From: Nitrosococcus halophilus Nc 4 | Lineage (GTDB): Bacteria; Pseudomonadota; Gammaproteobacteria; Nitrosococcales; Nitrosococcaceae | Reading direction: 5' to 3' | DNA: 64,000 bases | Assembly: GCF_000024725.1 (NCBI RefSeq) | Contig: NC_013960.1 | Coordinates: 3,768,001 to 3,832,000 of the forward strand | Shown: piece by piece, positions 10,687-26,310 of the stretch | Numbering within the stretch: position 1 is the stretch's first letter | Layout of the letters: every line of letters starts with the position of its first letter | Program-made: the position numbers and the translations under genes | The notes under the pieces: generated by a model | The model's database searches: none | The model's input: the letters and a program-made list of their open reading frames with translations, nothing else | Told to the model about the DNA's origin: nothing

Positions 10687-11864
10687 ATGAGATGGCGATC
10701 TATAATTCTAAGTATTGTAAGCTTTATCTTCGCAGACTGCGACTTGGGATGGCCGACCACGACGTAGGAGCAACGCGCAGTACCCTCTCCTGGTCCGATT
10801 GCGGCGAGTCGATTCCCTGGGCCACCTACTGGGGCCCCTCACAGAGCGGTCCGCTGAGTACTTTTGTTGACAACAACCCATGTGTTCAGATTGCGGACGG
10901 GACGCATGTTTTCAGCGGAACACAACTTATGCAGAACACGTCCCACGGCTTTCTGTATGTGCGAGGAAATGGTAGCAACACAGTCCTCAAGGCAAACGAG
11001 AGCATGCACTGCCCTTACTATCCATCGAGCAGCAGTTGCTTCCGCAGGCTGTTGAAAGTCGACAGCTCGAATGTAAAAATCGAAAATCTGAAGATCAATG
11101 GGGATGCATACCTCAGCAACGGCACGATGCGTGACGGACTAGCAGGCGGCATCACAATTCTTAAAGGGACAAGTAACCATAACAACGTCGTCAACAACGT
11201 AATTTTCCGGAACCTTGTATGCGTCGGTGTGCAGCTAGGGGGGAATGGAAACTCGGTCAAGAACAGCAATTTCGCCTACATCGGCGGCTATTGCCCGGAC
11301 AGTGACAATCCCAATTGGTTCGGCGTAGGGGCGGGTATATATGCCGCTGGCTGGGGTGGCCTTGCCTCATGGAACGTCGCGATTCGGGACAACAGCTTCC
11401 AAAACCTCCAAGGGACGCCGATCGACGTCGCCAAGGTGGATTACGGAGCGATCACAGGGAACTTTATCAAGAATACAAAGGGAATTGCCGGGATGATGCT
11501 GTTCGGAAACCGGTATTTCAATGTGTTGAACAACACGGTGGACAACGCGGGAGGCGAGTTCAACCAGCCTGCGTATGATTCGCATCCGGATTGCTACATC
11601 GAATCCGACAACGAAGAAACCGCGATCCGTATTTGCTCGGACGGCAGTTCCAATAAATCCGTTGACATGACTGTGAAGAACAATACGATCAAAAATAGCG
11701 ACTACGGCATCGTGCTTATCGGCAGTTCCGGTCGCGAGCCGGATGACAGCACCATCGAAGGGAATGACCTTTGGAACAACCCAGTCGGCAATCGGTGCAT
11801 GGATGACCGGTCGCCCGGGGCCAATACCTGGAGCCAGTCTTCCTGCAACGTCCTTTACTTCTAG
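10687..11864 (+). pseudogene. Right-handed beta-helix protein, frameshifted after its signal peptide
   Basis: The body (frame from 10692) is about 390 residues of Asn/Gly-rich repeats such as NVKIENLKINGD, NVIFRNLVCVGVQLGGNGNSVKNSNF, ITGNFIKNTKGI and MTVKNNTIKNSDYGIVL: the pattern of pectate-lyase-like parallel beta-helix repeats. The best start, however, is ATG 10687, 6 nt after AGGAG. It encodes MRWRSIILSIVSFIFADCD, a clear signal peptide, in a different frame that stops at about 10770. A one-base loss (or two-base gain) between roughly 10735 and 10768 would explain this. If real, the protein is not exported. Such proteins bind or cleave polysaccharides, fitting the glycan island. Confidence 0.7.
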
Positions 11865-11890
11865 GCGACCTCGAACAACGAGAATCACCT

Positions 11891-12163
11891 CTAGTTGGAT
11901 ATCGCCCGGGCCAACGGCTCTCGGAGCATGGTAATTAATGCAAGGCGTTGATCAAGAAGTTGTTGAAGGCCCCAGAAATGTCCGGCGAATAGTCTGTATT
12001 CTTGCAGTTCATGGGCGGGAATCTGCAAAAGCTCTGCTTGGACCTGGGCCGGACAAATTTTGCCCCCAGGAAAATACTGGGCCAAGTAGTATTGAAAACT
12101 CGTTCCCGCCGTCTTGGGTATATGTAGAAAATAAACAACCTCATCGCCCATCAAGTGATCCAT
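11891..12163 (-). pseudogene. N-terminal fragment of a sulfotransferase
   Basis: From ATG 12163 the frame reads VVYFLHIPKTAGTSFQYYLAQ (5'-phosphosulfate loop), then RLFAGHFWG, then ITMLREPLARAISN (3'-phosphate-binding motif), and stops after 90 residues. Family members run to about 230 residues or more, so roughly the last two thirds are missing. The cut lies right beside the end of the beta-helix gene, as if a deletion or insertion joined them. Confidence 0.8.
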
Positions 12164-12412
12164 GGCTTTCCCGTCTTTGCAAAGCTATTTAAGTATCTCA
12201 GTAAAAATTTTGAAGTATTCCCGGAGCGAGCCGCTGGTGTGGAGCCGGGGGACAGGGAAATCCCCGCAAAGCCTTTTTTCAGGGAGGAAAAACGGGTTTG
12301 CGGAACACCACCGGCCCGCCCCTAAACACCTCATATTTTATGCATAGGTACTTATTAATCTCGTTCTTCAGAATAGTGTACAAATCCTCGGCAATCCCCA
12401 ACATCCCCCACC

Positions 12413-13138
12413 CTACTGGCTGTTTTTTTCCTGCACAAACGCCTCATAGGCAGCCACCACCTCGTTGACTTCTCCTTCCATCCGGGTCTTCCCCTGCTCG
12501 ACCCAAACGGCCCGGTTGCATAGCTTGCGAATAGCCGCCACGCTGTGGGAGACCAAAACGATGGTTTTGTCCGATGCAATCTTGCGCTCTATCTCGGCCC
12601 GGGACTTGCGCTGGAAATCGGCATCGCCGACCCCCAACACTTCGTCGATGAGCAGAATATCCGGCTCCAGGTGGAAGGCCACCGAAAATCCGAGGCGGGC
12701 CCGCATGCCGGCGGAATAAGTATGCAAAGGATAATCAATAAATGACTCCAGTTCCGCGAAGGCGATAATCTCGCCCAGCTTCTCCTCCACCTGCTTGCGC
12801 CGGAATCCCAACAGCAAACCGCTGACGATGGCGTTGTCGCGCCCACTGAGATTGGGATCGAAACCCAGCCTCAATGACAATAGGGCCACGGAATGCCCAG
12901 GATTGATAATTTTCCCCTTATCCGGGCGGATGATGCCGCCAAGCACCTTCAACAGGGTGCTTTTTCCTGCCCCATTGCTGCCGATTACCCCCAGGGATTC
13001 CCCTTGATACAGGTCGAAAGAGACATCACGCAGGGCCTCGAATCGGTTTTGTCTTAGAAACCCGGTCCTGCGGCGGTAGGTGACGCCGACGCCCCTGACC
13101 GAGAGCACCACCCCGTCTGCCACCTTCAATGGCCTCAT
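12413..13138 (-). CDS. wzt: Polysaccharide ABC exporter, ATP-binding subunit
   Basis: A 241-residue ATPase of the Wzt/TagH type. Walker A is GSNGAGKST, the signature region lies around YSAGMRARLGF, Walker B is ILLIDEVLGVGD and the H-loop is LVSHS. With the permease it drives export of a lipid-linked glycan across the inner membrane. It is of the short form: it ends about 20 residues after VVAAYEAF and lacks the C-terminal carbohydrate-binding domain found in E. coli O9a Wzt. It overlaps the permease gene by the four bases ATGA (13135-13138). Its 3' third also exists as a broken copy at 9175-9492. Confidence 0.93.
   Translation of the reverse strand: MRPLKVADGVVLSVRGVGVTYRRRTGFLRQNRFEALRDVSFDLYQGESLGVIGSNGAGKSTLLKVLGGIIRPDKGKIINPGHSVALLSLRLGFDPNLSGRDNAIVSGLLLGFRRKQVEEKLGEIIAFAELESFIDYPLHTYSAGMRARLGFSVAFHLEPDILLIDEVLGVGDADFQRKSRAEIERKIASDKTIVLVSHSVAAIRKLCNRAVWVEQGKTRMEGEVNEVVAAYEAFVQEKNSQ
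12441..12718. repeat. Direct repeat, copy 2 (inside wzt)
   Basis: Partner of 9215-9492 in the same orientation. The segment covers wzt from just after the signature region to near its 3' end. Confidence 0.9.
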
Positions 13139-13917
13139 GCTTCGACGATCCTGGGGTAGAGATGACTGAAACGCTGGATCAAAAGCTGGGCGCCGTAGAC
13201 GCCCGCCAGGGCGAATAAGCCCACTTTAAAGAGGGCGGCCCAATCCGGCCAGACGCCGTCCATGAGGATGTCCCGGTAGGCTTCGATGAGGTTGGCCACG
13301 GGATTGAGGTAAAAATAGGTTTGATACTGCTCAGGGATGGAAGCCCCGGCGTAAAAAATACCGGAAAGAAAAAAAACCAATTGCAGCAGGGCATCGATGA
13401 GAAACTTAAGGTCCGGCACGAAGGGAACAATGGCCGCCGTCAGATAAGTGAAGGTCGTGAGCAGCAGCAACTGCACCAATATGACGCAGGGTAGCGCCAG
13501 ATAGCTGGGGCTGATATCAAATCCGTAGAGCCAGAGAAAAATAAGCAACAGGACAAAGACGAACCCGAACTTCACCAAGTCCATCACCATTTCGATGGTG
13601 GGAAAGATTTCCTTGGGCAGATCCACCTGGGTCATCAGCCGGCCATTACCATGGATGGCGTTCATGCCATGTTTGATCGAACCGGCAAACCACTGCCAAA
13701 CCACCAAGCCCACCAATAGGAAAGCCACGAAGTCTTCCGTGCCGCGCTGAATGAGCAAACCGAAAACGACGTAATATACCGACATGGAAAGGAGGGGCTC
13801 GAGGACCCACCAGAGAAAGCTAAGGTAAGTGCGCGACGCTTCGGCTCGCAGCCCAGTGAAGGCCTTAAACAAGACGAGTTCTCGATAACGTGGCTGAAGG
13901 ACGGTGATTCCAAGCAT
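13135..13917 (-). CDS. wzm: Polysaccharide ABC exporter, permease subunit
   Basis: A 260-residue ABC-2 type membrane protein with six predicted helices. Family features are YLSFLWWVLEPLLSMSVYYVVFG near the N-terminus, LPKEIFPTIEM in the cytoplasmic region, and the ending YLNPVANLIEAYRDILMDG, a hallmark of Wzm/TagG/KpsM permeases. It forms the export channel with the overlapping ATPase. No glycan-specific gene lies directly before it; a 410-bp non-coding stretch precedes the start. Confidence 0.93.
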   Translation of the reverse strand: MLGITVLQPRYRELVLFKAFTGLRAEASRTYLSFLWWVLEPLLSMSVYYVVFGLLIQRGTEDFVAFLLVGLVVWQWFAGSIKHGMNAIHGNGRLMTQVDLPKEIFPTIEMVMDLVKFGFVFVLLLIFLWLYGFDISPSYLALPCVILVQLLLLTTFTYLTAAIVPFVPDLKFLIDALLQLVFFLSGIFYAGASIPEQYQTYFYLNPVANLIEAYRDILMDGVWPDWAALFKVGLFALAGVYGAQLLIQRFSHLYPRIVEA

Positions 13918-14329
13918 CTTTTTTTCGATTCGATTTACAATTTCAGTTCACACATAAGCCAAAAGGAAATAAGGGTTTTCGTTGCGCTCTACCCCTACTG
14001 CAACCTGAAGCTAATCTGCACACCTTACAAAACTCCCGCTCAAGAAGGGGTGGAGGCGCGTAGCGAAACCCATCGCTGCTTGTTAATGCTCCTAAAATAA
14101 AATATTTAGCCGCGAATTAACGCCTATGAACGCCAATATTTCAATAGTTTAAAAACAGGCAAGCGTTGGCCCGTCAGAAAATCATCCCAGGCAATGTTTT
14201 ATAAGCGTTTATTCGCGTGCATTGGCGGCTAAAAATCGAATCTAGATTGTTCCTCGTCGCTATTTCTTTGTCCTTGTCGGTAGGTTCTAGCGTAGAGCCG
14301 TAAAAGGAACGAAGCGAAACCCGCCACCG
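13918..14329. repeat. Non-coding stretch with degenerate inverted repeats
   Basis: No gene is seen in this interval. Two inverted-repeat pairs are present. One joins GGGTTTTCGTTGCGCTCTAC (from 13974) with the imperfect complement ending GCGTAGCGAAACCC (up to 14070). The other joins TTTAGCCGC (about 14106-14114) with GCGGCTAAA (about 14224-14232). Another GCGAAACCC word lies near 14313. They look like decayed palindromic repeat units; the wzm promoter presumably lies at the left end. Confidence 0.45.
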
Positions 14330-15550
14330 CTACCTATGGAGGTTTTCCAACAGTCTCTTAGCCACACGAAACCGACCGCGTTCTTCAGGTCTCGGTACGC
14401 TATAGCAGGCCCCGTCCATTGGCTCGACCCTTTTCCTGCCAGGTAGACGCCGCAACACCGACCCGCTCGCCAATAGGGTGGGTTCGGGGAGGGTTGTGGG
14501 GACGACGGTTTGCCGACCTGTCAACGCATCCCGATAGGCCGTCATCAATGCGGAAAATAGCCGTAAACGCCGGCGCAGAAGATAAACCAGGGATTTGCCC
14601 AAAAAACGCAATGTGGCCGCCATGGGCAGAAGCTTCGGGTGGTGTTTTCTCGTATACAGAAGCGTGCTCAGGTTTTCATAATAGTTGCTCCGCCATGACT
14701 CTTTCCGGTTGACCGATGACCTCCCGCCAGTGCTTACCCCGCCCTTATGGTAAACCAGGCTCTGTTGACACCAACGGAGAGCGTACCCTCTAGCGCGGGC
14801 CCTGCGGGCCAAGTCCGTTTCCTCGTAATAAAGGAAAAAACGCTCGTCGAATAAACCGACCTTTCTCAACATCTCGGCGCGGCAGAACAGGGCGGCCCCA
14901 CCGATATAATCCAAAGGGACATCCGCCTCCCCGGCCAGCACCTCGTTTAAGCTCCGGCCGCCCCCAACGGGATTCATGAGGGTGGTCAGGGGCTGATAAC
15001 GGCACCCCCCGGCCATTTGCACCCGGTCGCGGCGATAGTAATCCACTATTGTACTGCCAAAGACTCCCACATGGGAATTCTGCTGGGCGCACGCCAACAA
15101 TGCGTCCAGGGCATGGGGGTGGACCAGGACGTCATTGTTGAGAATCCAAACGAACTCGCACTGTTCTCGCCCCAGGGCGCAGCGGATGCCCACGTTGTTG
15201 CCCCCTGAATAGCCCCGGTTGGCGCCGGTTTGCACCAGCAGAAAATCCCACTCCGAGGAGGGTTCGCTATCCCCCAACAGCCGCGCTAGAGAGTCGGTTT
15301 GGAGGTGGAAATGGCGCCCGGCCCAGGCTCTAATCCGGTCGATGGAATCATCCGAAGAGGCGTTGTCACAGACCACCAGGGCCAGTTGACGCTTCTGGAT
15401 CAAGGGCAGCAGGGAGTCTAAACATTCCAGGGTATGGTCGGGCCGGTTCCAGTTGAGAACGACGGCGCACACGCTGGGCGCTGTCTTTTCAAGGGCTGGC
15501 ATCCTCCGCCGGACTGAAAACCCACTGTCTAGCGCCTTCATCGCAAGCAT
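14330..15550 (-). CDS. Glycosyltransferase family 2 (rhamnosyltransferase-like)
   Basis: A GT2 protein of about 406 residues. The N-terminus has SVCAVVLNWNRPDHTLECLDSLL and VVCDNASSDDS; the metal site reads WILNNDVLV; the acceptor side has GGAALFCRAEMLRKVGLFDERFFLYYEETDLARRARARGY. This is the WbbL-type layout. ATG 15550 is chosen because it lies 14 bp after the stop of the upstream gene; the longer reading would run deep into that gene. The basic C-terminal 90 residues carry no obvious domain. It is the last gene of the packed minus-strand run starting at 21566. Confidence 0.88.
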   Translation of the reverse strand: MLAMKALDSGFSVRRRMPALEKTAPSVCAVVLNWNRPDHTLECLDSLLPLIQKRQLALVVCDNASSDDSIDRIRAWAGRHFHLQTDSLARLLGDSEPSSEWDFLLVQTGANRGYSGGNNVGIRCALGREQCEFVWILNNDVLVHPHALDALLACAQQNSHVGVFGSTIVDYYRRDRVQMAGGCRYQPLTTLMNPVGGGRSLNEVLAGEADVPLDYIGGAALFCRAEMLRKVGLFDERFFLYYEETDLARRARARGYALRWCQQSLVYHKGGVSTGGRSSVNRKESWRSNYYENLSTLLYTRKHHPKLLPMAATLRFLGKSLVYLLRRRLRLFSALMTAYRDALTGRQTVVPTTLPEPTLLASGSVLRRLPGRKRVEPMDGACYSVPRPEERGRFRVAKRLLENLHR

Positions 15551-15563
15551 GCCGGGATTAACT

Positions 15564-16505
15564 TTACTCCCACGCGGCAGGGTTTGCCGCCGCTTTCCGT
15601 GCGGATTCCTCCAATGAGGGCAAAACTGCCGTCGGCAGGGTGCCCAGATAAATAGGTCTCTTTTTAGGCGGCGCGAAATCCACCCCCCGCAATTCTTTAT
15701 ACTGGGCGCGCCAGGATTGGATGTTCTGCTGCCATTGGGCTTCTCCGGAATTGGTGGCAATGCCCCCATGGATCTGATGAAAGACTCCTTCACCGAGCAG
15801 AGTCACCAACTCCGCCTTATCCCGCAGCACCGCCCGGCGATAAAAATCCAGATTGACCAGCCCCCCTCCCGCCAAATCAAACCGCTCATCATAGCCGCCG
15901 AGATTCCAAAAGCTTTCCCTGCGCAGAAAGATGGCGTTGCTTTCCCCCATGGGCAAGAACCATCCGTCTTGGCAAGAAGCGGCGAGCACGGCAATCTCGA
16001 ACAATCGGTAACCCTCCTGGGGAAAACCGATTCCCGCCAATAAGGCATCCTCCTTGCCCTGATTATATCCTTCGGCGACGGAGTAGTTTTGCAATTGAGG
16101 CCCCAAATGCCATCCCAGCACCGAGACGGTGGGATCGTCAAATATCCGGAAAGCCCCGGAAGCCCAGCGCACCAGGCCGGGGGAAGCAATTCTGGCCCCG
16201 TCAATCATCAAGCAGACAATAGCGCCCCGGGAGTTCTTCACCCCCTGATTTAACCCATAGGCGGGTGAGGGGGGCGCATTTTCCAAGTATAGATAGCGAA
16301 AATTGTCGCCGTGGGCCTCCACCCGCTCCCTCCCGAAGGGAGGACGGGAGCCGTTGTCGACCACCACCACTTCGTAATTGACGCCGTCGGCGCCAAGCTG
16401 ATAGCGCCGGCTCAGGGACTGCAAAGTCCTGGGCAGTTCCCTGTCCATATTGTAGGTGATGACAATAAAAGACAGGTCTACCGGCTTTCGGAAGAATCCC
16501 AACAA
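15564..16505 (-). CDS. GT2-like protein with an IDGAR motif
   Basis: About 313 residues. LSFIVITYNMDRELPRTLQSL and YEVVVVDNGSRPPF are the nucleotide-binding part of a GT2 fold. Where DxD is expected it reads LMIDGARIASPG. Later motifs are ESNAIFLRRESF, NLGGYDERFDLAGGGLVNLD and FHQIHGG, all shared with the first half of the next gene upstream, so the two are paralogs. TTG 16505 is chosen as start because GGAGG lies 6 nt upstream; the longer ORF overlaps the neighbouring gene. A sugar-transfer role is likely, but the unusual metal site leaves activity open. Confidence 0.75.
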   Translation of the reverse strand: MLGFFRKPVDLSFIVITYNMDRELPRTLQSLSRRYQLGADGVNYEVVVVDNGSRPPFGRERVEAHGDNFRYLYLENAPPSPAYGLNQGVKNSRGAIVCLMIDGARIASPGLVRWASGAFRIFDDPTVSVLGWHLGPQLQNYSVAEGYNQGKEDALLAGIGFPQEGYRLFEIAVLAASCQDGWFLPMGESNAIFLRRESFWNLGGYDERFDLAGGGLVNLDFYRRAVLRDKAELVTLLGEGVFHQIHGGIATNSGEAQWQQNIQSWRAQYKELRGVDFAPPKKRPIYLGTLPTAVLPSLEESARKAAANPAAWE

Positions 16506-16539
16506 TGCCAACCTCCTTCCGTAGGATTTGCCGAGAGAC

Positions 16540-18288
16540 TTACTTACCGCGCCGCTGGTTGCGGTAAAAATTCGGCGGACGGCCGGCCTTGCGCATGGCA
16601 AAACGATGGCCGGTCAGGATCACCTCGTCCGGGACCGTGTCCACCCCCAAGGCGGCGATGGCCTCGATACGCTGGACATCCTTTGCCGCCACGAACCAGG
16701 TCTGCAAGGTATGGGGCCAATCCAACTTGCGGCAACACAAACCGGCTTCGGAACAAGCGGCCACGATCGTCGACCAACTAAAATGATTGAGCCCCGGATA
16801 AACCCACTCGTCACCCACTATCAAATCCTCCTCCCGCTCCACGAAGGTGGCGACCAGCAGACCGTCCTGCTTGAGGACGCGGCCCGCTGAACGAAGGCAC
16901 TGGCGCAATAGAGGGGGGCCGGTATGACTGAAAATGGACTGGGCCAGGATGAAATCGAAATCGGTATGGAAAACCCCCAGATCGAAATCGTCGTTGTAGG
17001 CGAATTGCGGTCGCTTGAGCGCCACCAGATCCCGGCCGATCTCCTGGTTGATGCCCTCCTCCACCAACCAGCGGTTCGGCTCAATGCCAAAATAGCGCGA
17101 GGGTTGGAGATAGGGAATGAACAACCGCCCGCCACGGAGGGAGCCGCAACCCACATCCAGCAAATAATGGGATTCCCGCAACCCCAGCAGGCCCAGGAGG
17201 CTGAACTGCAAGGCTGAAATCAGATCATAGTGCTCCACCCGGCCCACATAGGCGCGATAGTTTTCGTCGCCCGGCTTCAACTCCGGGGACGGGGGCGCCG
17301 ATACCGGCTGGGAGGCTTGCCCACCGGCTTTGGAACGGGCCGCCTCGTATTCCCAATCATTCAATAGGGTCGCGCTGGCCCGACGAATCCAGGGCATGGC
17401 TTCCCGCCGGGGATAGCCCACCAACAAGGGCAGCCGAGAAGATTGGCGAAAATCCTCGCCCCGTATCCGCCGATACTGCTCCCGGTAGCGGGCCATTTCA
17501 TCGGGAATTTGCGCCGCCGGCCGATTGGCCATGGTGCCGCCATGAATCTGGTGGAAGGTCGCCTCGCCCAGCAAGGTGATGAGGGTCGAGCCCTTCAGAT
17601 CACTGGCGCGGCGATAAAAATCCAGATTGACCAGCCCCCCGCCCGGCAGATCGAAGCGCTCGTCGTAGCCCTCCAATTCATCGAACATCGCCCGTGGCAG
17701 GAACAACAGATTGCTTTCCGCAAGCCTCCCCAACCAGGCGCCCCGGCTGGAACCTCCCAAAGCGCTGATATCAAACAGCCGGTAGCCGTTCCGGCGCCAT
17801 CCGCTGCGCTCCAGCAGGGCGTCTTCCTCGGCCTGGCAGTACCCCTGGGCCGGTGAACGGGTCTGGATATCGGGCCCCAGGTGGAAGCCCACCGTCCCCA
17901 CCACCGGACGATCGAAGCGATCCAGACACGCCAACGCCATCTGCACCACTCCCGGCGTACTCATGCGCGCGCCGTCGATGAGAATGCCCACCGTCGGCGA
18001 CAGAGAGGCGGCCACGCCCCGATTAATGGCCGCTGCCGGGGACGGCGGCCCATCGTCAATGCGGATATGGCGGAAATTCCCCCCCAAACTTTCACTTACC
18101 GCCCTATCCAGGGGAGGGTTTGAGCCGTTATCCACGGCGATCACCTCGTAATCCCCTTCACTGACCCCTCGCTGATAACCTGCCGATAGGGAATAGAGGG
18201 TACGCGGCGCCTCACGCGCCATATTATAGAAAACCCCGATAATGGACAGGCGCGGCCGCACTGTTTTCCCGGTCGGCGAGGCGCTCAT
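16540..18288 (-). CDS. GT2-like / SAM-methyltransferase fusion
   Basis: 582 residues. The first 290 or so repeat the architecture of the next gene (LSIIGVFYNMAREAPRTLYS; VDNGSNPPLD; ILIDGARMSTPG; GYDERFDLPGGGLVNLDFYR; FHQIHGG). After a Pro-rich linker comes a class I methyltransferase: LLDVGCGSLRGGRLFIPYLQ is the SAM loop, YFGIEPN the acidic strand, and FDFILAQSIFSHTG motif IV. That half is paralogous to the separate methyltransferase at 18982-19707. ATG 18288 overlaps the stop of the sulfotransferase gene by four bases (ATGA). The protein may add and methylate a sugar; the substrate is unknown. Confidence 0.85.
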   Translation of the reverse strand: MSASPTGKTVRPRLSIIGVFYNMAREAPRTLYSLSAGYQRGVSEGDYEVIAVDNGSNPPLDRAVSESLGGNFRHIRIDDGPPSPAAAINRGVAASLSPTVGILIDGARMSTPGVVQMALACLDRFDRPVVGTVGFHLGPDIQTRSPAQGYCQAEEDALLERSGWRRNGYRLFDISALGGSSRGAWLGRLAESNLLFLPRAMFDELEGYDERFDLPGGGLVNLDFYRRASDLKGSTLITLLGEATFHQIHGGTMANRPAAQIPDEMARYREQYRRIRGEDFRQSSRLPLLVGYPRREAMPWIRRASATLLNDWEYEAARSKAGGQASQPVSAPPSPELKPGDENYRAYVGRVEHYDLISALQFSLLGLLGLRESHYLLDVGCGSLRGGRLFIPYLQPSRYFGIEPNRWLVEEGINQEIGRDLVALKRPQFAYNDDFDLGVFHTDFDFILAQSIFSHTGPPLLRQCLRSAGRVLKQDGLLVATFVEREEDLIVGDEWVYPGLNHFSWSTIVAACSEAGLCCRKLDWPHTLQTWFVAAKDVQRIEAIAALGVDTVPDEVILTGHRFAMRKAGRPPNFYRNQRRGK

Positions 18289-18977
18289 GAAGCTATCTCC
18301 CACAGAGTCTCATACAGGGCCCGCACCTCAGCGGGCAGTTCCCTCTCCATCCGCCCATGATGGCGCCGTAAAGCGGAGGTGAAGAAGGACGATCCCCGAG
18401 GGGGGTCGGCAAGTCCTAGCTTCCCAGCGATCTTGGCCAGCCGCTCGGCGTATTGCGGGGGCTCCCAATCGAAACAAATAATGGGAAAACGAAAGCGTTC
18501 CCAATAGGCGAGCAGTCGCCGATTATAGGCCAGCCACAAAGCGTAAGCCTTCTCCGGGGCAAACTTGTTGCGCTGGAGCAAGGACTCGGCCACTGCGGTC
18601 GGATGGCGGAAGGTGCCCACGCAACTGGGCATCGGCAGGGCTTCCAACCACCCCTCCAGGGTCAACAAGGTGCGCGGTTCCTTGAAGCCCCAAATATCGT
18701 GGGTAGGATAGGCGGCGATAATCCCATCGCGGCGCCGCCTTTGAGATTCATCCCAGCGCACTGCCGCCGGAGGCCTATCCCAGGCGCCGCCATTGGCCCG
18801 GAGCACTTCGTCGTTAAGATCCATAATGGCCCGGTTTTCCCGGTTGCCGCGGGCGTTGTGGGGCGCCTTGGTATTCACCGGCCCCAGATACAGCCCCGCT
18901 TCTTCCAGGCAGCCGGCCAGGCAACTGGTGCCGCTGCGATGCATTCCCAACACCACGACTGCCTTCGATGGACTCAT
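18285..18977 (-). CDS. Sulfotransferase family protein
   Basis: 230 residues beginning MSPSKAVVVLGMHRSGTSCLAG, where GMHRSGTS is the 5'-phosphosulfate loop. Later motifs are GFKEPRTLLTLEGW and CVGTFRHPTAVAESLLQRN, the usual 3'-phosphate-binding strand and helix, and ALWLAYNRRLLAYWERF. The domain resembles the first 280 residues of the 1307-residue fusion. It would transfer sulfate from PAPS to a hydroxyl of a glycan or lipid in the cytoplasm. It is coupled (ATGA) to the GT2-like/methyltransferase fusion and begins 4 bp after the methyltransferase stop. Confidence 0.85.
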   Translation of the reverse strand: MSPSKAVVVLGMHRSGTSCLAGCLEEAGLYLGPVNTKAPHNARGNRENRAIMDLNDEVLRANGGAWDRPPAAVRWDESQRRRRDGIIAAYPTHDIWGFKEPRTLLTLEGWLEALPMPSCVGTFRHPTAVAESLLQRNKFAPEKAYALWLAYNRRLLAYWERFRFPIICFDWEPPQYAERLAKIAGKLGLADPPRGSSFFTSALRRHHGRMERELPAEVRALYETLWEIAS

Positions 18978-18981
18978 GGCG

Positions 18982-19707
18982 CTACGCCGTGCGGGTAAAC
19001 ATCAACATGGACTGGCCGCGGGGATGTCCCCAGTCGCCGATGAACTCGAAACGCCATGGCAACCCGTCGATACAGTAGCTGAAATCTGCGAGCCGGTAAT
19101 GGTACGGATCGTCGGCGGGGTAAGTCGTAAATTTGCCCTGGGGATGGGTAAAGGCATCCGCCCAGTCGCTGCCTTCTGGGCAGATGAAGGCAGTCGCGTA
19201 GAAGGTACCGCCAGGCTTCATAGCCTCGGCCAGCCGCGTCAGACACAGCCGGATATGATTCATCGGCAAATGGGTGAACAAGGACTGGGCCAACGCCATA
19301 TCGAAATGCACCCCAAAGTGGGCAGCACGGAAGCCGTCGTCGCAGAACAGATTTTCCTTCGGCAGCTTATTGTCCAACCCCTGGGGCACTAATTCTTTCT
19401 GGTAGCCCGCATCCATCAATTCCTGGGAAATGTCGATACCATAATAGTGGCCCGGCTGGAGATATTCGATCAGGTGTACGCCGCCTCGAAAACAACCACA
19501 GCCCATATCCAAAAGGCGCATTTCCGGCTTCAGGCCCTGCTGCAAGAGAAAGTCCCGTTGCAGGCGGCCGATCTCCTCCCACAGCCCACCGACCAGGCCG
19601 CGATGCCGGCCCGCCTTCACCTGAGCGAGGGTCCTGCCCAGATCGTAATATTTATTCACCCCAGATAGCGGTTGTTCACCGGGTCTGGACGAACCACCAC
19701 TGGCCAT
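18982..19707 (-). CDS. Class I SAM-dependent methyltransferase
   Basis: 241 residues from ATG 19707, which has GGGAG upstream and overlaps the end of the lipoprotein gene by 32 bp; the longer ORF is a shadow of that gene. Motifs: LLDMGCGCFRGGVHLIEYLQ (SAM loop), YYGIDISQELM, FDMALAQSLFTHLP, and MKPGGTFYATAF. It is paralogous to the C-terminal half of the fusion at 16540-18288, differing in the acidic strand (YGIDIS against FGIEPN). The acceptor is unknown; O-methylation of a surface sugar is plausible given its neighbours. Confidence 0.82.
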   Translation of the reverse strand: MASGGSSRPGEQPLSGVNKYYDLGRTLAQVKAGRHRGLVGGLWEEIGRLQRDFLLQQGLKPEMRLLDMGCGCFRGGVHLIEYLQPGHYYGIDISQELMDAGYQKELVPQGLDNKLPKENLFCDDGFRAAHFGVHFDMALAQSLFTHLPMNHIRLCLTRLAEAMKPGGTFYATAFICPEGSDWADAFTHPQGKFTTYPADDPYHYRLADFSYCIDGLPWRFEFIGDWGHPRGQSMLMFTRTA

Positions 19708-20122
19708 CCTGTTTCTCCCACAGCTCGTCCCAGGTGCCGACGGGCTCGGCGGCGTTGAGGCCGGTGACGGTCCCGGCGGTGTCGAAATGCTGCTGCACCA
19801 CCACGGTGGCCCGCGATGGATCCTCAAAGGCAAAGATGACTTGGCGAACCTTGACCTCTTTTCGAGGCGCCAACACCTCATAATGGTTCCGCAGCCGCTT
19901 CACGCTCCAGTTGCCGCGCTGGGTTGGCGCGAAGAATTCTCGGGCCGCCTCGTAATCGCCGGCCAAGATCACCTCCCAGCGCGCCAGCACCCGCTGCCGG
20001 AGCAAGGCTTCCTCCGCCGCCAGATCCTGGGCGCGCGTGGAAGAACCGGCGCATCCCCCCAACCCGGCCCACAGCAGCAACACAATGGCGCCCGCGGTTA
20101 TCCGCACAAAGGTTTTCTGCAC
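19676..20122 (-). CDS. Lipoprotein of unknown function, paralog A
   Basis: 148 residues. MQKTFVRITAGAIVLLLWAG then LGGC gives a lipoprotein signal with lipid-modified Cys at about 24. The mature part has an N-terminal helix (AAEEALLRQRVLARWEVILAGDYEAAREFFAP), a hydrophobic strand region and the ending DGQWWFVQTR. The fold pattern (helix, then strands ending in a W-W-Y/F motif) resembles small NTF2-like or DUF4440-like cone proteins. It is paralogous to the next gene upstream (20183-20635). It sits between the isomerase and the methyltransferase/sulfotransferase genes. Confidence 0.8.
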   Translation of the reverse strand: MQKTFVRITAGAIVLLLWAGLGGCAGSSTRAQDLAAEEALLRQRVLARWEVILAGDYEAAREFFAPTQRGNWSVKRLRNHYEVLAPRKEVKVRQVIFAFEDPSRATVVVQQHFDTAGTVTGLNAAEPVGTWDELWEKQDGQWWFVQTR

Positions 20123-20182
20123 CTTCCTCTCCCTTTTAAAATTTTCCCGTCACGCCCCCGAAGGAGCTCCCCGGCATCCGGA

Positions 20183-20635
20183 TCAGCGGGGCTCCACATA
20201 CCACCATTGCCCGTCCACCTTCATCCAGGTTTCCTCCACCCGGCTCACCCCCTCGATCATGGGGCCAAGCACGCCTGAACTCTCAAACTCCAGCAATAAC
20301 CCGACCTTGGCCAGGGCAGGGTCATCCGGGTCAAAGCGGATATCCCGGATCTCGATGCCCTTGCGGCGAACCTGGGCGGCGTATTGATTCTGGAAATGCT
20401 CAAGGCTATGGGTGCGGCGATAAGCCGGCGTGGCAAACTCATAGACCCGCTCGAAATCCAGGGCCTGAATCGCCTCCCAGCGGGCATGGATCCGAGCGCG
20501 TAAAGCTTCCTCCTCGGTACGGACCCCACCTGGGTGGGCGCAGCCGCTGATCCACAGCACCGCCAGCAGGCATAAGCCGCCGAATATCCGGCTTGCGCCC
20601 CACCCTTGAAAATGATACCCAACTCGCTCCCCCAT
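20183..20635 (-). CDS. Lipoprotein of unknown function, paralog B
   Basis: 150 residues. A hydrophobic segment, GGLCLLAVLWISGC, ends in a lipobox with Cys at about 32. The mature part shares EEEALRARIHARWEAIQALDFERVYEFATPAYRR and the ending DGQWWYVEPR with paralog A, so the pair arose by tandem duplication. It starts 4 bp after the stop of the parvulin gene, implying one transcript. Function unknown; an NTF2-like fold at the outer membrane or periplasmic face is a guess. Confidence 0.8.
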   Translation of the reverse strand: MGERVGYHFQGWGASRIFGGLCLLAVLWISGCAHPGGVRTEEEALRARIHARWEAIQALDFERVYEFATPAYRRTHSLEHFQNQYAAQVRRKGIEIRDIRFDPDDPALAKVGLLLEFESSGVLGPMIEGVSRVEETWMKVDGQWWYVEPR

Positions 20636-20639
20636 GGCC

Positions 20640-21566
20640 TCACTTCCCTTTTGGCTGTAATTCGTTGACCACTTGCTCCAGCACCTCGTAATTGATTTTC
20701 CTCGGATCGGGATAGGACTGACTGCGCTTTTGCTCCATGGCGCTGGCCCGCACTTCGGCGCGCACTTGCCGCATCAGCTTCCCCTTAACTTCCTCGAAGC
20801 TGAGCTGCCGCGACGGCTTCACCTCCAACAGTTTGATCAGATGCACGCCAAAGGGAGTCTCCACCGGCTTGCTGATATCGCCGGGCTTGGTTAAGGCGAA
20901 GGCGGCATCCTCGAAGGGTTTGACCAACCTGCCGTCCCGTTTGATCCAGCCGGGCAGTTCCCCGCCGTCTGGGGCCGTCCCTTTGTCCCGGCTGCGCTCC
21001 CGCGCCGCCGCCCCGAAATCCCCGCCGGCGAGCAACTCCCGGCGAAGCGCCGCAGCCCGCTCCCGCGCCGGTGGCCGCTCATCGCAGGGACAGTCTGCCG
21101 GCTCGGCCAGCAGAATGTGGGCCACCCGGCGCTTTTCGGCGGTGCGCAGCTTATCCTTGTGCAGACTATAACGCTCCCGGGCCAGGGCCTTCAAATCCCT
21201 ATCGGAGGGCACGGCCGCCTCCCCGGCGACCTTCTTCATCAACGCCCTCGCCAGCACCTGGCGGCGCACGGCCCGAAGCTGGGCCGCCACCTTGGGATCC
21301 TCCGCCAAACCCAGGTCCTCGGCCTCGGCGGCAAGCACCCAATTAGAATGGAAATCCAGGGCCAGATCCCGCAGCCGTTCCCGATCCCCAGTCAGGCCTT
21401 GCCACTGCTTGGCTTCAACACCGCTCAAATGGCGGCGATAATCTTCCGCCGTCAAGCGCAATTGCGGCGAAACGCTCACCGCTTCGGGCGTCTCGGCGGC
21501 AACCGCCGAAGCCCCTACCGTCATCAAAAACAAAAGCCCATATCCGACCCACGCTAAAATCTGCAT
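20640..21566 (-). CDS. Exported parvulin-type peptidyl-prolyl isomerase
   Basis: 308 residues: signal peptide 1-24 (cleavage after AVAA), a SurA/PrsA-like helical N-domain (about 30-140) and one rotamase domain (about 145-250) with RRVAHILLAEP, GGDFGAAARERSRD, GGELPGWIKRDGRLVKPFEDAAFAL and ETPFGVHLIKLLEVK. The N-domain and single rotamase unit match the PpiC-domain periplasmic chaperones, not the two-domain SurA. A CPC pair sits in the loop after the first strand. It heads the run of two lipoproteins, methyltransferase, sulfotransferase and GT2 genes, so it may fold an exported partner of that system. Confidence 0.88.
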   Translation of the reverse strand: MQILAWVGYGLLFLMTVGASAVAAETPEAVSVSPQLRLTAEDYRRHLSGVEAKQWQGLTGDRERLRDLALDFHSNWVLAAEAEDLGLAEDPKVAAQLRAVRRQVLARALMKKVAGEAAVPSDRDLKALARERYSLHKDKLRTAEKRRVAHILLAEPADCPCDERPPARERAAALRRELLAGGDFGAAARERSRDKGTAPDGGELPGWIKRDGRLVKPFEDAAFALTKPGDISKPVETPFGVHLIKLLEVKPSRQLSFEEVKGKLMRQVRAEVRASAMEQKRSQSYPDPRKINYEVLEQVVNELQPKGK

Positions 21567-21601
21567 GCCGTTTAACCTGTGTCCCTCATGGTAGTGCGAT
21601 C

Positions 21602-21629
21602 AAAAAAGGCGCCGGGGTGGCCGGCGCCT
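21602..21629 (-). terminator. Rho-independent terminator after the 633-residue exported protein
   Basis: Stem AGGCGCCGG/CCGGCGCCT (21607-21615 with 21621-21629), followed on the minus strand by six T residues. It lies between the stop at 21688 and the isomerase start at 21566, so the exported-protein gene is probably a separate transcript from the isomerase run. Confidence 0.85.
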
Positions 21630-21649
21630 GTTGGTTCATGGCAGAAGCC

Positions 21650-21679
21650 ATGACTCTCCGCCCGCGAGCGGAGAGTCAT
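21650..21679. other. Perfect 12-bp inverted repeat
   Basis: ATGACTCTCCGC (21650-21661) pairs with GCGGAGAGTCAT (21668-21679) around a 6-nt loop. It lies directly before the terminator and may act with it to stop transcription or protect the mRNA 3' end. Confidence 0.75.
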
Positions 21680-21687
21680 CCCGCCGT

Positions 21688-23589
21688 TTAGTTCTGCAAC
21701 ACCAAATTGTCGTTGTCCCGCAGGTAAGCGTGATCGGTGGAACTGGCGAAGTTGCGGGTCACGTCGCCGAAAGTCCGCTGCTTGAGCATGAAGCCGGTCA
21801 CCGGCAGGCCCCGATGGTCAGCGACATTGGAGGGCAGCCCCCCCTGATCACCCTGCCCCGACAATTGCGGGTTGGTGGGGACCAGATCCAGCCGCATCCA
21901 ACCGGCGGTGTTGCCCGGCGCCGGCAAGGTGGCGGTGCTCACGGTGGTGGGCAGGCCGTCGGTGTCCAGGAGGGGATAGATGGAATCCAGCGCGCTCTGG
22001 CCGTTGAAGGTAATCACGTTGGTCTCGTAGCAGAGCTGCTGGGATTCAACCACCGGCGGCGGCGCGGGGGAGACTACCACCTCCTCGGCATCCTCCTCGA
22101 AGGTGCGCTGCTCGGCCCGGTCGAAGACCGCGGTCTGCACCTCGTTACAGGCGGTCGCGCTGGTGCGATCGGTCTCAATGGTCTGCCCAAAGGCGTTGGC
22201 AAACGGAGCGTAGGGGATGTCGTCGCCTACGCCCAGGATCGTCTCCGGGCGGTTATGGGTATTAGCGGTATCCACAACCCCGCTGGGAATGATCGCCGAC
22301 TGCACCCCCGGACCCTGGTTGCCGAACTTGGTCACACCATCGTTAGCACTCCCTTGGGTGAGCGTTTCCGAACCGTCCACGTAGAAGCCCTTGGTGGGCA
22401 GGGTCACAATCCAGTCCGTGGTCACCCCCAGGGCCGGATTGTTGGACCACTCGTTGACGATCCCGGAACGCTGGATGGTCAAACTCAGGGCATCCACCCC
22501 ACGCAAGTTCTCAGGCGGATGCGCATTAGTGGTGTTCAGCGGCATGGCCATGATGGGCAGATTCAGGCCATCGTCCCACCAGTTGGCGGTCTGGGGAAAG
22601 GCGTCATTCAGGCTCGGCTCCAGGAAGTCGAAGGCGACCTGGGCGGTGATGAGATTCCGGCAACTGGCACCGGCATCGCTAGCGTCTGGCACCCAGTTGT
22701 CAATTTGTGAACGCTCGTCGCCCCGGGTGATGGTACAACCCACGTTGTCGGCAGGATCGATGATCGCATCGACAGCGGATGCGCCCGGATTATAGAAATT
22801 GGCCCAGGTGGTGGCGGTGTTGCCGGCCTCGACCCCCCGGGAGGGATTGAGCAGGGTGAAGTTGAACTTGAGGGCATTAATGGGTTCGCCGAACTGCCGC
22901 GCCGTGGCAAGGATATTGGCGCGACTAAAGGCGGTCTCAAGGGTAGCGCAGTCATGGCTTTCGATGACGTCCTCGATGGGATCCAGGGGCAACGGGAATG
23001 TACTGGGATCCTGAGCCGTCCCCATATCGGCATGGCCCATGACGATGAACTCCACATAACCTTCCCGCATCCGCTCGGCGGCTTCCGGCGTCAACCCGGT
23101 GGGATTGGCCAGGGTCGGGGTGGAGCCCGTGGGGCCCCCGTCGTCGTTGCGGGTTCCCGCCGGACCGAAAGCCAGGGGGCTCAGGGGAATTTCCGCCCCG
23201 CCGCCAACGGCGCTAGGAATGGTACAGGTCTTGAGGCCGTCGGCATTTTCTTGATCCGTGGCCACGAACACCGGACCACTGCCGTCGGAGGCTTCCTTGA
23301 GCACCCCGGTGAATACGTCGAAACTGGACAAGGCCACGTTGAAGTCCAACACGTCGCGGCTGTTGCGCCCTTCGTGAATACGGACCTTGACGATGATGGG
23401 CACGTTCTGGGTGTTGATCAGGTTGACGGTGGTCAGCCAGCCGTCCCGGACCGTGTAATAGGGCGCGATGGCCACTTCCCCGATCCCGTCGGTGGCGATG
23501 TTCACTGCTCCGGCCTGTGGCGCCAGCAGGGCACCGCCGACCGCTGCCGTAACAGCCAGGGCCGAGCGTTTGAGATTAAATAATTTCAT
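21688..23589 (-). CDS. Large exported protein of unknown function
   Basis: 633 residues with a clear signal peptide (MKLFNLKRSALAVTAAVGGA, cleavage near QAGA, residue 28). The mature chain opens with IGEVAIAPYYTVRDGWLTTVNLINTQ, is rich in Asp, Asn, Thr, Gly and Pro, and has few Lys. It ends GFMLKQRTFGDVTRNFASSTDHAYLR without a membrane anchor or sorting tag. Four or more Cys occur singly across the chain. I recognise no enzymatic motif. Its acidic, repeat-poor, beta-rich look suits a surface or S-layer-like protein. It has its own terminator and a long upstream region. A high codon bias (GCC, ACC, GGC) is consistent with good expression. Confidence 0.8.
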   Translation of the reverse strand: MKLFNLKRSALAVTAAVGGALLAPQAGAVNIATDGIGEVAIAPYYTVRDGWLTTVNLINTQNVPIIVKVRIHEGRNSRDVLDFNVALSSFDVFTGVLKEASDGSGPVFVATDQENADGLKTCTIPSAVGGGAEIPLSPLAFGPAGTRNDDGGPTGSTPTLANPTGLTPEAAERMREGYVEFIVMGHADMGTAQDPSTFPLPLDPIEDVIESHDCATLETAFSRANILATARQFGEPINALKFNFTLLNPSRGVEAGNTATTWANFYNPGASAVDAIIDPADNVGCTITRGDERSQIDNWVPDASDAGASCRNLITAQVAFDFLEPSLNDAFPQTANWWDDGLNLPIMAMPLNTTNAHPPENLRGVDALSLTIQRSGIVNEWSNNPALGVTTDWIVTLPTKGFYVDGSETLTQGSANDGVTKFGNQGPGVQSAIIPSGVVDTANTHNRPETILGVGDDIPYAPFANAFGQTIETDRTSATACNEVQTAVFDRAEQRTFEEDAEEVVVSPAPPPVVESQQLCYETNVITFNGQSALDSIYPLLDTDGLPTTVSTATLPAPGNTAGWMRLDLVPTNPQLSGQGDQGGLPSNVADHRGLPVTGFMLKQRTFGDVTRNFASSTDHAYLRDNDNLVLQN

Positions 23590-24348
23590 GCTGAATCCCC
23601 CTTGCGAAAGAGTTTATTGTCTTTTCCATATTACAATTACAAATGATAACGATTAAGCGAATATCACGTCAGAAAAATTTCGGCGGCAACCAGCCGTATT
23701 GGGTGATTGCGCACAGCCGCCCACCCCGGTATTTCCTGCGAAGCGGACAATGAACATCACGGTAATCAACCCTTACTGATCCCTCTTATGAGCGATAACA
23801 TTGCGGTGCTTTGATTTAGAACGTAACGTAGCAGTGACATGGTAGCGTGTCAACGACATTTTTCACTTAAAAACAATGAGCAGCAAAGAAAATAACATTT
23901 TTTACTCTAAAAGCTAATGCCCACCTAAAGGGGTAAGGTGTAAAAATTATAGACAAGCAATCCCACGAATGCGAAATTCAATATCGTTTTTATCCACACC
24001 GCTGTAAAAATCAAACACTAAAACGGCAATGATGGGGTAAAACTTTAACCTTTTGGATGCCTCTAGAGAGAACAAGCTGGGTCCGTAACGGCTAGGTGCT
24101 TGTCGCCACGAATAAAAATAGGCGCGGCGAGTCCTGCCGGAAAACATTCGAGGCGGGAGGGGATGATGGCCCCTGGAATATCCCCCCCCCAGGGCGGCGG
24201 ATGCCGCCGCAGGGTCTTTTGGTCATCAAATCCGCCAGGGGTTCCGGCTAGAGTCTCCTCGCCAAGACTGGCATAATTGCTTCTATCGTTCTTGCTCCGG
24301 CAAGAGAATGTCTATTTTTTAACCGTAACTTTAGAATATTCATTGGCC
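23590..24348. other. 759-bp intergenic region, no gene recognised
   Basis: This separates two divergently transcribed genes and presumably holds both promoters. The part next to the exported-protein gene is AT-rich; near 23643 it has AATGATAACGATTA, a partial match to a Fur half-site pattern. Around 24180-24245 it is GC-rich with short palindromes. A motif CCACCTAAAGGGG (23921-23933) recurs at 30872-30884. I see no riboswitch before gcvPB. Confidence 0.5.
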
Positions 24349-25803
24349 ATGCTGATTTTTGAATCCTCACGTCCCGGTCGTCATCCTCGCACCCAAGCCC
24401 CCAAGGCGGCTGTCCCCACCGATTTACCGGCGCAATTTCTGCGGCAGCAGCCCCCGGCATTGCCCGAGGTCTCCGAATTGGATGTGGTGCGCCACTACAC
24501 CCGCTTGTCCCAGAAAAACTTTTCCATCGACACCCATTTTTATCCCCTCGGCTCCTGCACCATGAAATATAACCCCCGGGCCTGCCACACCCTGGCCAGC
24601 CTACCGGGTTTCCTGGAGCGGCACCCGGCGACGCCGGAAGCCATGAGCCAAGGCTTTCTGGCCTGCCTCTATGAGCTGCAAACAATCCTCGCCAAGATGA
24701 CGGGGATGCAGACCATGAGCCTGGCGCCCATGGCGGGGGCCCAAGGGGAGTTTAGCGGGGTCGCCATGATCCGCGCCTACCACCAGGCCCGGGGCGACCA
24801 CGAACGGCGTGAGATGCTGGTCCCCGATGCCGCCCACGGGACCAACCCCGCCACCGCCACCATGTGCGGTTTCCGGGTGCGGGAAATCCCCACCAATCCG
24901 GAGGGAGACGTGGATCTGGAGGCCCTGCGCAGCGCCTTGGGCCCTCAAACGGCGGGCATCATGCTCACCAACCCCTCTACCCTGGGGATATTCGACCGCA
25001 ACATTGAAGCGGTTGCCGAGAGCGTCCATGAGGCGGGGGGGCTGCTTTACTATGATGGGGCCAATCTGAACGCCATCCTCGGCAAGGTCAAGCCGGGAGA
25101 TATGGGGTTCGATGTCATCCATCTTAATCTCCATAAAACCTTCGCCACCCCCCATGGCAGTGGCGGCCCGGGCGCCGGCCCCGTTGGGGTAGGCGATAAA
25201 CTGTTGCCTTTCCTCCCCGTTCCCCGGGTGGAGCGAGGCGAGGATGGCAGCTTCCATTGGCTGACCGAAGAAGACTGCCCCCAAACCATCGGTCCCCTCT
25301 CCGCTTGGATGGGTAACGCGGGCGTCCTGCTGCGGGCCTATATTTATGTGCGCTTGCTGGGCCTGGAAGGGATGAAGCGGGTCGCGGATTTCTCCGCCCT
25401 CAACGCCAATTACCTGGCCAAACGCATGGCCGAAGCCGGTTTCGATCTGGCTTACCCGGAGCGTCGCGCCGGCCATGAATTCGTGGTGACCCTCAAACGC
25501 CAAGCCAAGGAACAGGGAGTGACCGCCACGGATTTCGCCAAGCGCCTGCTGGATTTGGGGTTTCACGCCCCCACCATTTATTTCCCCCTCTTGGTCCCGG
25601 AATGCCTGCTCATCGAACCGGCGGAGACCGAAAGCAAGCAAACCCTCGATGCTTTCGTGGCGGCCATGGCGCAGATTGCCAAAGAGGCCCAAGAGGATCC
25701 GGAGCAGCTCAAGGAGGCCCCCCGCAAGTTGCCGGTACGCCGCCTGGATGAAGTCAGGGCCGCGCGGGAGCTGGATCTGGTCTGGAAACCGGCCCCCCCA
25801 TGA
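24349..25803 (+). CDS. gcvPB: Glycine dehydrogenase (decarboxylating) subunit 2
   Basis: 484 residues, the usual size of the P2 subunit of two-subunit glycine decarboxylase. It has [37 protein letters not shown]-like sequence and the PLP-binding Lys in [13 protein letters not shown] (K263). With GcvPA it decarboxylates glycine and passes the aminomethyl group to GcvH. ATG 24349 is the first sound start; the longer reading begins with poor codons. gcvT, gcvH and gcvPA, which normally come just before, are not here. The stop overlaps dgkA by ATGA. Confidence 0.95.
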
Positions 25804-26165
25804 CTAAGCAAATACATCCGAAAGATGAAGGCCTCCGCCATTTGTTTTTGGCGGCGGGCTACTCTTTCAAAGGCTTTCGGGCAGCCCTTAGCGAAACCGC
25901 CTTTCGCCAGGAATTGCTCCTATTGCTGGTGGGAGGACCCCTAGGCCTGTGGCTCGGTGAAACCGGAATAGAACGGGCCCTGCTGGTGGGCAGTTTATTA
26001 TTGGTGCTGATTGTCGAATTGCTCAACACCGCGGTGGAGGCAGCAGTGGACCGGGTCGGCTACGAGCACCATACCCTTTCGGGGCGGGCCAAGGATTTAG
26101 GTTCCGCCGCCGTCTTCACCAGCCTGGCTTTGGCGGCTTTCGTGTGGTTTTCCATTCTCCTATAG
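25800..26165 (+). CDS. dgkA: Diacylglycerol kinase
   Basis: 121 residues, matching the small trimeric bacterial enzyme. It has an amphipathic N-terminus, then three membrane helices. Conserved motifs are [28 protein letters not shown] and the catalytic [15 protein letters not shown], then [14 protein letters not shown]. It phosphorylates diacylglycerol at the inner membrane so that lipid by-products of envelope synthesis can be recycled. It starts inside the gcvPB stop (ATGA), so its translation is coupled to that gene. Confidence 0.95.
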
Positions 26166-26179
26166 TTGAGTCGTCGCCT

Positions 26180-26221: not shown

Positions 26222-26310
26222 GGTTGGCTCAACCAGCCTCAGCACGAGGAGACTGGACCCACAGAGACTCAACCAGGTCAATTCAACCCAAGCAAAACCA
26301 TCAAGTTGGA

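Follow-up and report, generated by a model that had tools for sequence, protein, structure and literature searches.

What does a packed run of minus-strand genes build at the surface of Nitrosococcus halophilus Nc 4? The run lies in a 64,000-nucleotide stretch of contig NC_013960.1 (positions 3,768,001 to 3,832,000; called the window here). In it a large exported protein and an exported peptidyl-prolyl isomerase (PPIase) stand beside two lipoproteins, glycosyltransferases, methyltransferases, a sulfotransferase and the two components, Wzm and Wzt, of a polysaccharide exporter. S-layers are common in Gram-negative bacteria, but only in a few cases is it known, to our knowledge, which factors fold, export and anchor them. 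Our answer, given with moderate confidence, is that the locus builds a second S-layer-like coat, made of an S-layer or S-layer-like protein and of a sulfated, methylated O-polysaccharide which anchors it. Nitrosococcus thereby gains a second candidate coat protein; according to a passage of PMC10765051, these marine ammonia oxidizers have been known for more than fifty years to carry an S-layer without an identified protein.

The exported protein and its partners

The genes that the original prediction had named were all recovered by open reading frame (ORF) and domain scans, on the minus strand and in the order given there (Table 1). The exported protein has a signal-like sequence with a cut after residue 28 (simple motif) and no recognizable domain: no Pfam family and no NCBIfam match over the cut-off was found, and the PDB sequence profiles gave six matches, all with E above 0.5. 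By composition, the mature protein has about 64 kDa, a pI of 4.2 and six cysteines. Its relatives were matched by single-sequence search in 14 and by profile search in 18 of 370 genomes of the class, this genome included; among the 370, the family is present in 18, the lipoprotein in 23 and both in 11.

Do the genes of the run stay together in other genomes? The original prediction made this one of its tests, and for a core of the genes a neighbourhood search confirms it. In the first test, single sequences of the window and of a paralogue's locus (see below) served as queries in 31 regions from genomes with family matches. Two of these regions are halves of one locus in the congener G003, and G003 and one stretch of G080 were first taken for IDGAR, a glycosyltransferase-like protein of the run. 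The lipoprotein was found in 18 regions, the PPIase in 14, wzm in 12, wzt in 14 and gspD, a gene of the type II secretion system (T2SS), in 11. As controls we took 20 regions at arbitrary positions in 11 genomes, all from the first set and none from the genomes added later; the respective counts there were 0, 0, 0, 2 and 0.

The second test covered 40 regions of genomes not used for the profiles, mostly best-scoring rather than random loci and some of them cut by contig ends. The G080 family contributed 4 of them, the G392 family 12 and the order of G374 (100 of 150 genomes matching) 24. Here the lipoprotein was present in 34 regions and the PPIase in 31, wzm in 25, wzt in 26 and gspD in 23, and the same controls again stand at 0, 0, 0, 2 and 0. 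The predicted link of the isomerase and the lipoproteins with the exported protein is thus supported, and the whole looks like a surface system. Linkage is tightest in the order of G374, with the lipoprotein in 24/24 regions, gspD in 23/24, wzm and wzt in 22/24 each and the PPIase in 21/24; in the families of G080 and G392 both lipoprotein and PPIase occur in 10/16. Because the members of the lipoprotein profile (A2) were themselves taken from beside the family protein, 10 of its 14 strong sites lie near that protein by construction. The four strong sites outside the profile (G360, G395:C23, G080 and G364:C2) are also within 1.1 kb of a family protein; around 13 weaker sites there is none.

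Both lipoproteins show a lipobox-like Gly-Cys by eye, and neither matched the PDB sequence profiles. The AlphaFold2 (AF2) model of lipoprotein 1 has a pLDDT of 75, and its best Foldseek match (E 6e-5) is penicillin-binding protein 2a, whose N-terminal part we take to be NTF2-like. Comparison by VIA gave Z up to 10.9 (rmsd 3.7, 112 residues), with Z of 10.0-10.7 for chains titled NTF2-like. As modelled, the fold of lipoprotein 1 is NTF2-like; a fold alone shows no function. Two conserved candidate partners of a widespread S-layer-like family can thus be named, the NTF2-like lipoprotein and the PpiC isomerase. A PpiC-like isomerase among glycan genes also recalls the EpsD-type PPIase of exosortase/exopolysaccharide loci (TIGR02925). 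This candidate was rejected: the PPIase scored 23.7 bits against a cut-off of 108.9, and the exported protein carries no sorting-signal family.

A paralogue beside type II secretion genes and the NpdA family

At C2:3755647-3757071 the same genome holds a second family member, which BLAST aligns to the window protein over its residues 10-473 (E 3.7e-32); the two genes are about 33 kb apart. Upstream of this paralogue comes a lipoprotein related to the two of the run, all three being of one family, then GspD, GspC, GspM of subtype b, a PilM/PilN-like GspL, GspK and GspJ. The matches to the GspC and GspJ models fall slightly short of the cut-off, and that to PilM slightly exceeds it. These gspJ-K-L-M-C-D genes are about 30 kb from the window copy, gspD about 29 kb, and gspE was found over cut-off elsewhere in the genome, at 451 kb. 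Downstream follow an exported 204-residue protein and a PPIase, and wzm- and wzt-like genes about 3.8 kb further. The order gsp genes, lipoprotein, family protein, PPIase recurs in G001, G002, G004, G005, G374, G121 and G325, followed in G004 and G005 by wzm and wzt.

Some details of these loci may be added. The exported protein of about 204 residues between family gene and PPIase is conserved (L101:6733-7347, L104, L105) and belongs to no Pfam family. The gsp-linked family gene of G002 is partial, with only its C-terminal part matched (L105:9754-10509), and two family genes of G005:C1 are split over two frames (L107:11674-13391 and 14513-16802).

The paralogue brings to mind NpdA of Delftia acidovorans and Paracidovorax citrulli (PMC3110197 and PMC10765051, papers of 2011 and 2023), a T2SS-linked S-layer protein and likewise a secreted protein without known conserved domain. 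Passages of PMC10765051 identify NpdA as the S-layer protein of P. citrulli by deletion, proteomics and cryo-EM, and count N. halophilus, N. oceani, N. wardiae and N. watsonii among the npdA carriers. They also describe gsp genes adjoining npdA, with gspEFGHI missing there in Nitrosococcus, and our paralogue lies beside gsp genes in just this way. From gene context, size and the species list of that paper we infer that the gsp-linked paralogue is npdA and that the window protein is a second member of its family. The claim of an undescribed system is therefore too strong: the exported protein falls in an apparent NpdA S-layer family, and a linkage of T2SS, S-layer and O-antigen is in print for Aeromonas.

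The partners are another matter. The main text of PMC10765051, its neighbourhood figure aside, does not contain the strings 'peptidyl', 'lipoprotein', 'glycos', 'lipopolysaccharide' or 'O-antigen', and term searches in the available text of PMC3110197 and PMC10765051 met neither the partner lipoprotein, nor the PPIase, nor Wzm/Wzt. Among the titles and abstracts found in searches of an open-licence library, none links any of the three to NpdA.

Is the window protein then simply another NpdA? Since T2SS genes are missing beside it, we class it in a related second clade and not as an npdA orthologue; it further differs from the NpdA locus by its IDGAR and sulfotransferase genes. Two trees, of 24 and 23 family members, separate the window type from the T2SS-linked type by well-supported branches (100/98). 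The T2SS side of the first tree also holds 8 members with no gsp gene directly adjoining. In the second tree the second clade consists of the window protein, G003, G080 (two), G425, G426, G427, G458, G457, G450, G429, G392 and G070, with the proteins of the window and G003 as sisters (97/95). The order family protein, PPIase, lipoprotein is common to the window, G003, G080, G425, G426 and G427; in other members of the clade the lipoprotein comes first. Within the genus, IDGAR was not matched in G001 and G002, where the family is represented by its gsp-linked gene alone. Copy number varies elsewhere: each of four genomes of genus g311 (G516, G537, G552 and G562) has ten family matches, and in genus g295 (G487, G567, G572 and G607) ORFs of about 940-1000 residues hold two tandem family copies.

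What path might the protein take? It would enter the periplasm by Sec, where the PpiC isomerase would help it to fold, and it would then cross the outer membrane, most likely through the T2SS whose gspJ-K-L-M-C-D genes lie beside the paralogue, and self-assemble on the cell surface. The NTF2-like lipoproteins may act at a membrane in the crossing or assembly step, as chaperones, pilots or docking factors. The product could instead be a secreted soluble or adhesive exoprotein that forms no lattice, which we think improbable. The window protein is longer than its T2SS-linked paralogue (633 against 481 residues) and only 25% identical to it, and some taxa carry the family in many copies per genome, which suggests varied roles. 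Yet its acidic composition resembles that of S-layer proteins. NpdA itself forms an S-layer in P. citrulli, and the passages of PMC10765051 on 16 further npdA-bearing cultures report an NpdA-like S-layer in all but one of them, one passage naming two exceptions.

Glycan genes, anchoring and alternative readings

The two IDGAR proteins carry a family 2 glycosyltransferase (GT2) domain (PF00535, cut-off 23.3 bits, with scores of 41.7 and 24.7), and profile matches to solved glycosyltransferases reach E 5.7e-8. All 11 rows of alignment A4 have DGAR in what we take to be the place of the DxD motif of GT2 enzymes, so DxD itself is absent there, and all 11 share an invariant GE..FHQ.HGG block. Such strong conservation would speak for an active enzyme despite the altered motif.

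A sulfotransferase gene adjoins the IDGAR gene in 8 of 12 loci (the window, L045, L046, L048, L050, L053, L262 and L270), those of the window, L048 and L053 being below the Pfam cut-off and assigned by BLAST. L264 has a weak sulfotransferase match, in L275 the nearest such domain is about 3.4 kb away, and L047 and L049, contigs of about 3.5 kb, have none. IDGAR, sulfotransferase, PPIase, lipoprotein and family protein are combined in each of G003, G425 and G458, and in three families second-clade loci come with IDGAR proteins and sulfotransferases. The G425 locus holds a sulfotransferase fusion, IDGAR, sulfotransferase, family protein, PPIase, one lipoprotein, further sulfotransferase-like genes, wzm and wzt. 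The G458 locus has a sulfotransferase (63%) and an IDGAR-methyltransferase fusion (60% over residues 21-590) with PPIase, family protein and lipoprotein.

Wzm and Wzt beside glycosyltransferases (PF01061, PF00005 and PF00535) is the composition of an O-polysaccharide locus dependent on an ATP-binding cassette (ABC) transporter. The Wzt C-terminal domain (Wzt_C, PF14524), which belongs to some such systems only, is absent from Wzt of the window, G003, G425 and G450 (4/4) and present in the 6/6 others tested, in one of them below cut-off. This suggests export without recognition of a terminal cap. Taken together, the glycosyltransferases, methyltransferases and sulfotransferase would make a sulfated, methylated polysaccharide, which Wzm/Wzt would export and which would be joined to the lipid A core; the acidic O-polysaccharide would then anchor the coat, probably via divalent cations. 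What the sequences show is the gene set and its conservation, the split into two clades, the NTF2-like model and the uneven divergence described below; the NpdA identity, the T2SS route, the S-layer state, the role of the lipoproteins, the anchoring and the chemistry of the glycan are inferred from them.

Does the glycan anchor the protein, or decorate it? The original prediction had a protein decorated with glycan, which survives as one option only; because the run contains a Wzm/Wzt exporter, we favour an anchoring O-polysaccharide. A dedicated sulfated, methylated S-layer glycoprotein, with the glycan on the exported protein itself, seems unlikely to us. Exported protein, isomerase and transferases do share one run, and IDGAR occurs in 4/16 regions of the G080 and G392 families and in 0/24 of the T2SS-linked G374 order. 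However, Wzm/Wzt in the known cases export lipid-linked polysaccharide for lipopolysaccharide (LPS) or capsule, no oligosaccharyltransferase was among the cluster genes scanned, which are part of the window genes, and T2SS-linked relatives share wzm/wzt but have no IDGAR within 20-kb regions.

Anchoring of this kind has known counterparts. The RsaA S-layer of Caulobacter is attached to smooth LPS, with the O-polysaccharide as anchor; the difference lies in type I secretion and in another protein. PMC10765051 mentions RsaA together with the genes for its type I secretion. For the Delftia layer, LPS was required if it was to assemble in vitro (PMC3110197). The nearest arrangement is the A-layer/O-antigen locus of Aeromonas salmonicida (wbsalmo with vapA). 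In the description of PMC4483657, wzm and wzt flank a T2SS and the S-layer gene there, and a sulfotransferase domain is given for the gene next in the list after wzt, so that S-layer gene, Wzm, Wzt and sulfotransferase-domain gene are united in one locus. In contrast, wzm and wzt of the window adjoin each other (12413-13917), the S-layer-like gene lies outside them and T2SS genes are missing. A pair of PPIase and NTF2-like lipoprotein was not met in that description.

Several observations weigh against an anchored coat exported by a T2SS. The secretion genes are the first: no gspD, gspL or gspK match was found in window positions 10000-29999, and gspD occurs in 0/16 regions of the G080 and G392 families. 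In the same families wzm is present in 3/16 and wzt in 4/16, which makes the exporter link firm mainly for the T2SS-linked clade. The partners are missing in places: several loci of the 31-region test have the family protein without lipoprotein and PPIase, four of the 16 regions (L265, L267, L276 and L277) hold it with no searched partner and L273 with wzt only. Single-sequence searches found no partner near the distant relatives G156, G382, G249, G237, G308, G215 and G087 (short stretches in G156 and G237), nor beside extra copies in G374 (C19 and C30), G364 (C1) and G004. For an additional copy in G080, a sulfotransferase was the only partner. The window-type locus is present in 2 of 4 genus genomes searched, G003 and this one (G000). 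The NpdA family name comes from context, size and a species list, as described above, and the AF2 model of the exported protein, built without relatives, has a pLDDT of 30 and lends no support to a fold. Finally, the 412-bp gap before wzm may interrupt its co-transcription with the run.

Two separate neighbouring units, a surface-protein unit (exported protein, PPIase, lipoproteins) and an ordinary O-antigen or capsule cluster, would explain the terminator-like hairpin and the gap that break the run, the lack of wzm in 13/16 regions of the G080 and G392 families and the IDGAR-sulfotransferase pair of G183, where no exported-protein family match was found, but this is quite unlikely given wzm in 25/40 regions, 22/24 of the G374 order and 0/20 controls, and given that the IDGAR, sulfotransferase, family protein, PPIase and lipoprotein set recurs in three families. 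The alternatives discussed are not mutually exclusive. In all, the analysis ties the family to a polysaccharide exporter and indicates a second, sulfotransferase-linked clade.

How evenly has such a locus diverged? We compared it with G003. Eight genes on the gcvPB side have 92-99% protein identity, wzm and wzt 93-94%, the GT2 and the second IDGAR protein 82-84% and the far glycan genes 84-92%. Identity falls to 41-46% in the sulfotransferase, lipoprotein 1, the PPIase and the exported protein. The IDGAR1-MT fusion (the first IDGAR protein, joined to a methyltransferase domain, MT) and lipoprotein 2 have no G003 counterpart of their own, their best matches (45% and 32%) being the genes already paired with the second IDGAR protein and lipoprotein 1. 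Nothing in G003 matched the separate methyltransferase. A core of the run is kept together, as predicted, but the separate methyltransferase and the second lipoprotein are without counterpart even in a congener. Along the exported protein, 53 of the first 60 residues are identical, followed by blocks with 40-71% of aligned residues identical. The window sulfotransferase is nearer to that of G458 (60%), from another family, than to that of G003, and the congeners group together in 2% of bootstrap trees; the sulfotransferase tree is poorly resolved. Such a pattern, which one would expect of a surface antigen, would fit an S-layer half that evolves fast or is partly exchanged within the locus.

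A wider idea, which we regard as possible though doubtful, is that bacteria of this kind carry matched cassettes, in each of which an S-layer protein is paired with an isomerase, a lipoprotein pilot and a sulfated O-polysaccharide anchor of its own, and that these cassettes diverge and are exchanged as units, like serotypes. This genome would have two of them, one T2SS-linked and one T2SS-free, and the cell may wear two distinct or layered coats.

Boundaries of the run and neighbouring genes

The run is real, but its predicted end at position 14330 is not: wzm and wzt come next, after 412 bp. Further glycan genes at 1023-7718 keep their positions in G003 and partly in G392, and the run probably extends to the sulfotransferase-glycosyltransferase fusion and the other glycosyltransferases found there. 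The G392 relative of the GT4 gene in this part directly precedes lipoprotein, exported protein and PPIase.

Table 1. Genes of the run and of the adjoining glycan region, in window positions
Feature	Position	Strand	Basis and remarks
Exported protein, NpdA-like (S-layer protein) family, second clade	21688-23589	-	633 aa; BLAST, trees
PpiC-type (parvulin) PPIase, exported	20640-21566	-	PF00639 (E 1.1e-19), PF13616
Lipoprotein 1, NTF2-like fold in model	20183-20635	-	AF2 model, Foldseek, VIA; region counts
Lipoprotein 2, paralogue of lipoprotein 1	19676-20122	-	36% identity to lipoprotein 1
Methyltransferase	18982-19707	-	PF08242; candidate starts 19707 ATG or 19659 GTG
Sulfotransferase	18285-18977	-	PF13469 at 22.2 bits, cut-off 27; G003 homologue 30.7
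IDGAR GT2-like domain fused to methyltransferase domain (IDGAR1-MT)	16540-18303	-	PF00535 and PF08242
Second IDGAR GT2-like protein (IDGAR2)	15564-16505	-	PF00535; TTG start 16505 or 16502
GT2 glycosyltransferase	14330-15550	-	PF00535; ATG start 15550 or 15541
Wzm-type polysaccharide ABC transporter permease	13135-13917	-	PF01061; NCBIfam Wzm/RfbD and KpsM under cut-off
Wzt-type ATPase without Wzt_C domain	12413-13138	-	241 aa; PF00005, no PF14524
Sulfotransferase-GT2-GT4 fusion, probable member of same glycan locus	3795-7718	-	1307 aa; Pfam, sulfotransferase part below cut-off; 84% in G003
GT4 glycosyltransferase, probable member of same glycan locus	2636-3778	-	Pfam; 90% in G003, 48% in G392
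GT2, probable member of same glycan locus	1023-1724	-	Pfam; 92% in G003, 62% in G392

The joins are less tight than predicted. Joins of 4 bp exist only between PPIase and lipoprotein 1 and between methyltransferase and sulfotransferase, and the sole clear overlap is that of sulfotransferase and fusion gene (19 bp). Three further overlaps, nominally of 206, 62 and 230 bp, are owed to over-long starts: they become smaller or disappear when later candidate starts are taken, in two cases with support from the congener. Between exported-protein gene and isomerase the predicted terminator is present, as a hairpin at 21629-21607 with 9 pairs, 8 of them G-C, followed by TTTTT. A scan for terminator-like sites gave 17 in 12.4 kb against 14.9 in shuffles, and this site is distinct by its stem only. 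The hairpins after the gsp-linked paralogue are weaker, and no such hairpin was found in G003 after the exported-protein gene. In G425 a very strong hairpin with eight T (L262:9943-9971) directly follows the family gene, in the same place as in the window.

Two other origins were tried for the genes of the run and rejected. Among 50,697 phage records, none matched the IDGAR1-MT fusion protein. As for a defence system, the one result from a scan of four proteins was a weak match to mad2, lying in the fusion's methyltransferase domain. A contig search with the fusion protein found one locus only, with a match to the methyltransferase domain, in a metagenome-assembled genome of Phycisphaerae.

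Large proteins that partly match the fusion at 3795-7718 are also found near family loci in G392, G425 and G457. Beyond wzt, the minus strand at 11891-12163 codes for a fragment of 90 residues, the N-terminal end of a Sulfotransfer_2-like protein, which scores under the Pfam cut-off; the matching place in G003 holds a 290-residue relative (L044:16067-16939). On the opposite strand, inside the glycan region, a right-handed beta-helix (NosD-like) protein is encoded at 10692-11864.

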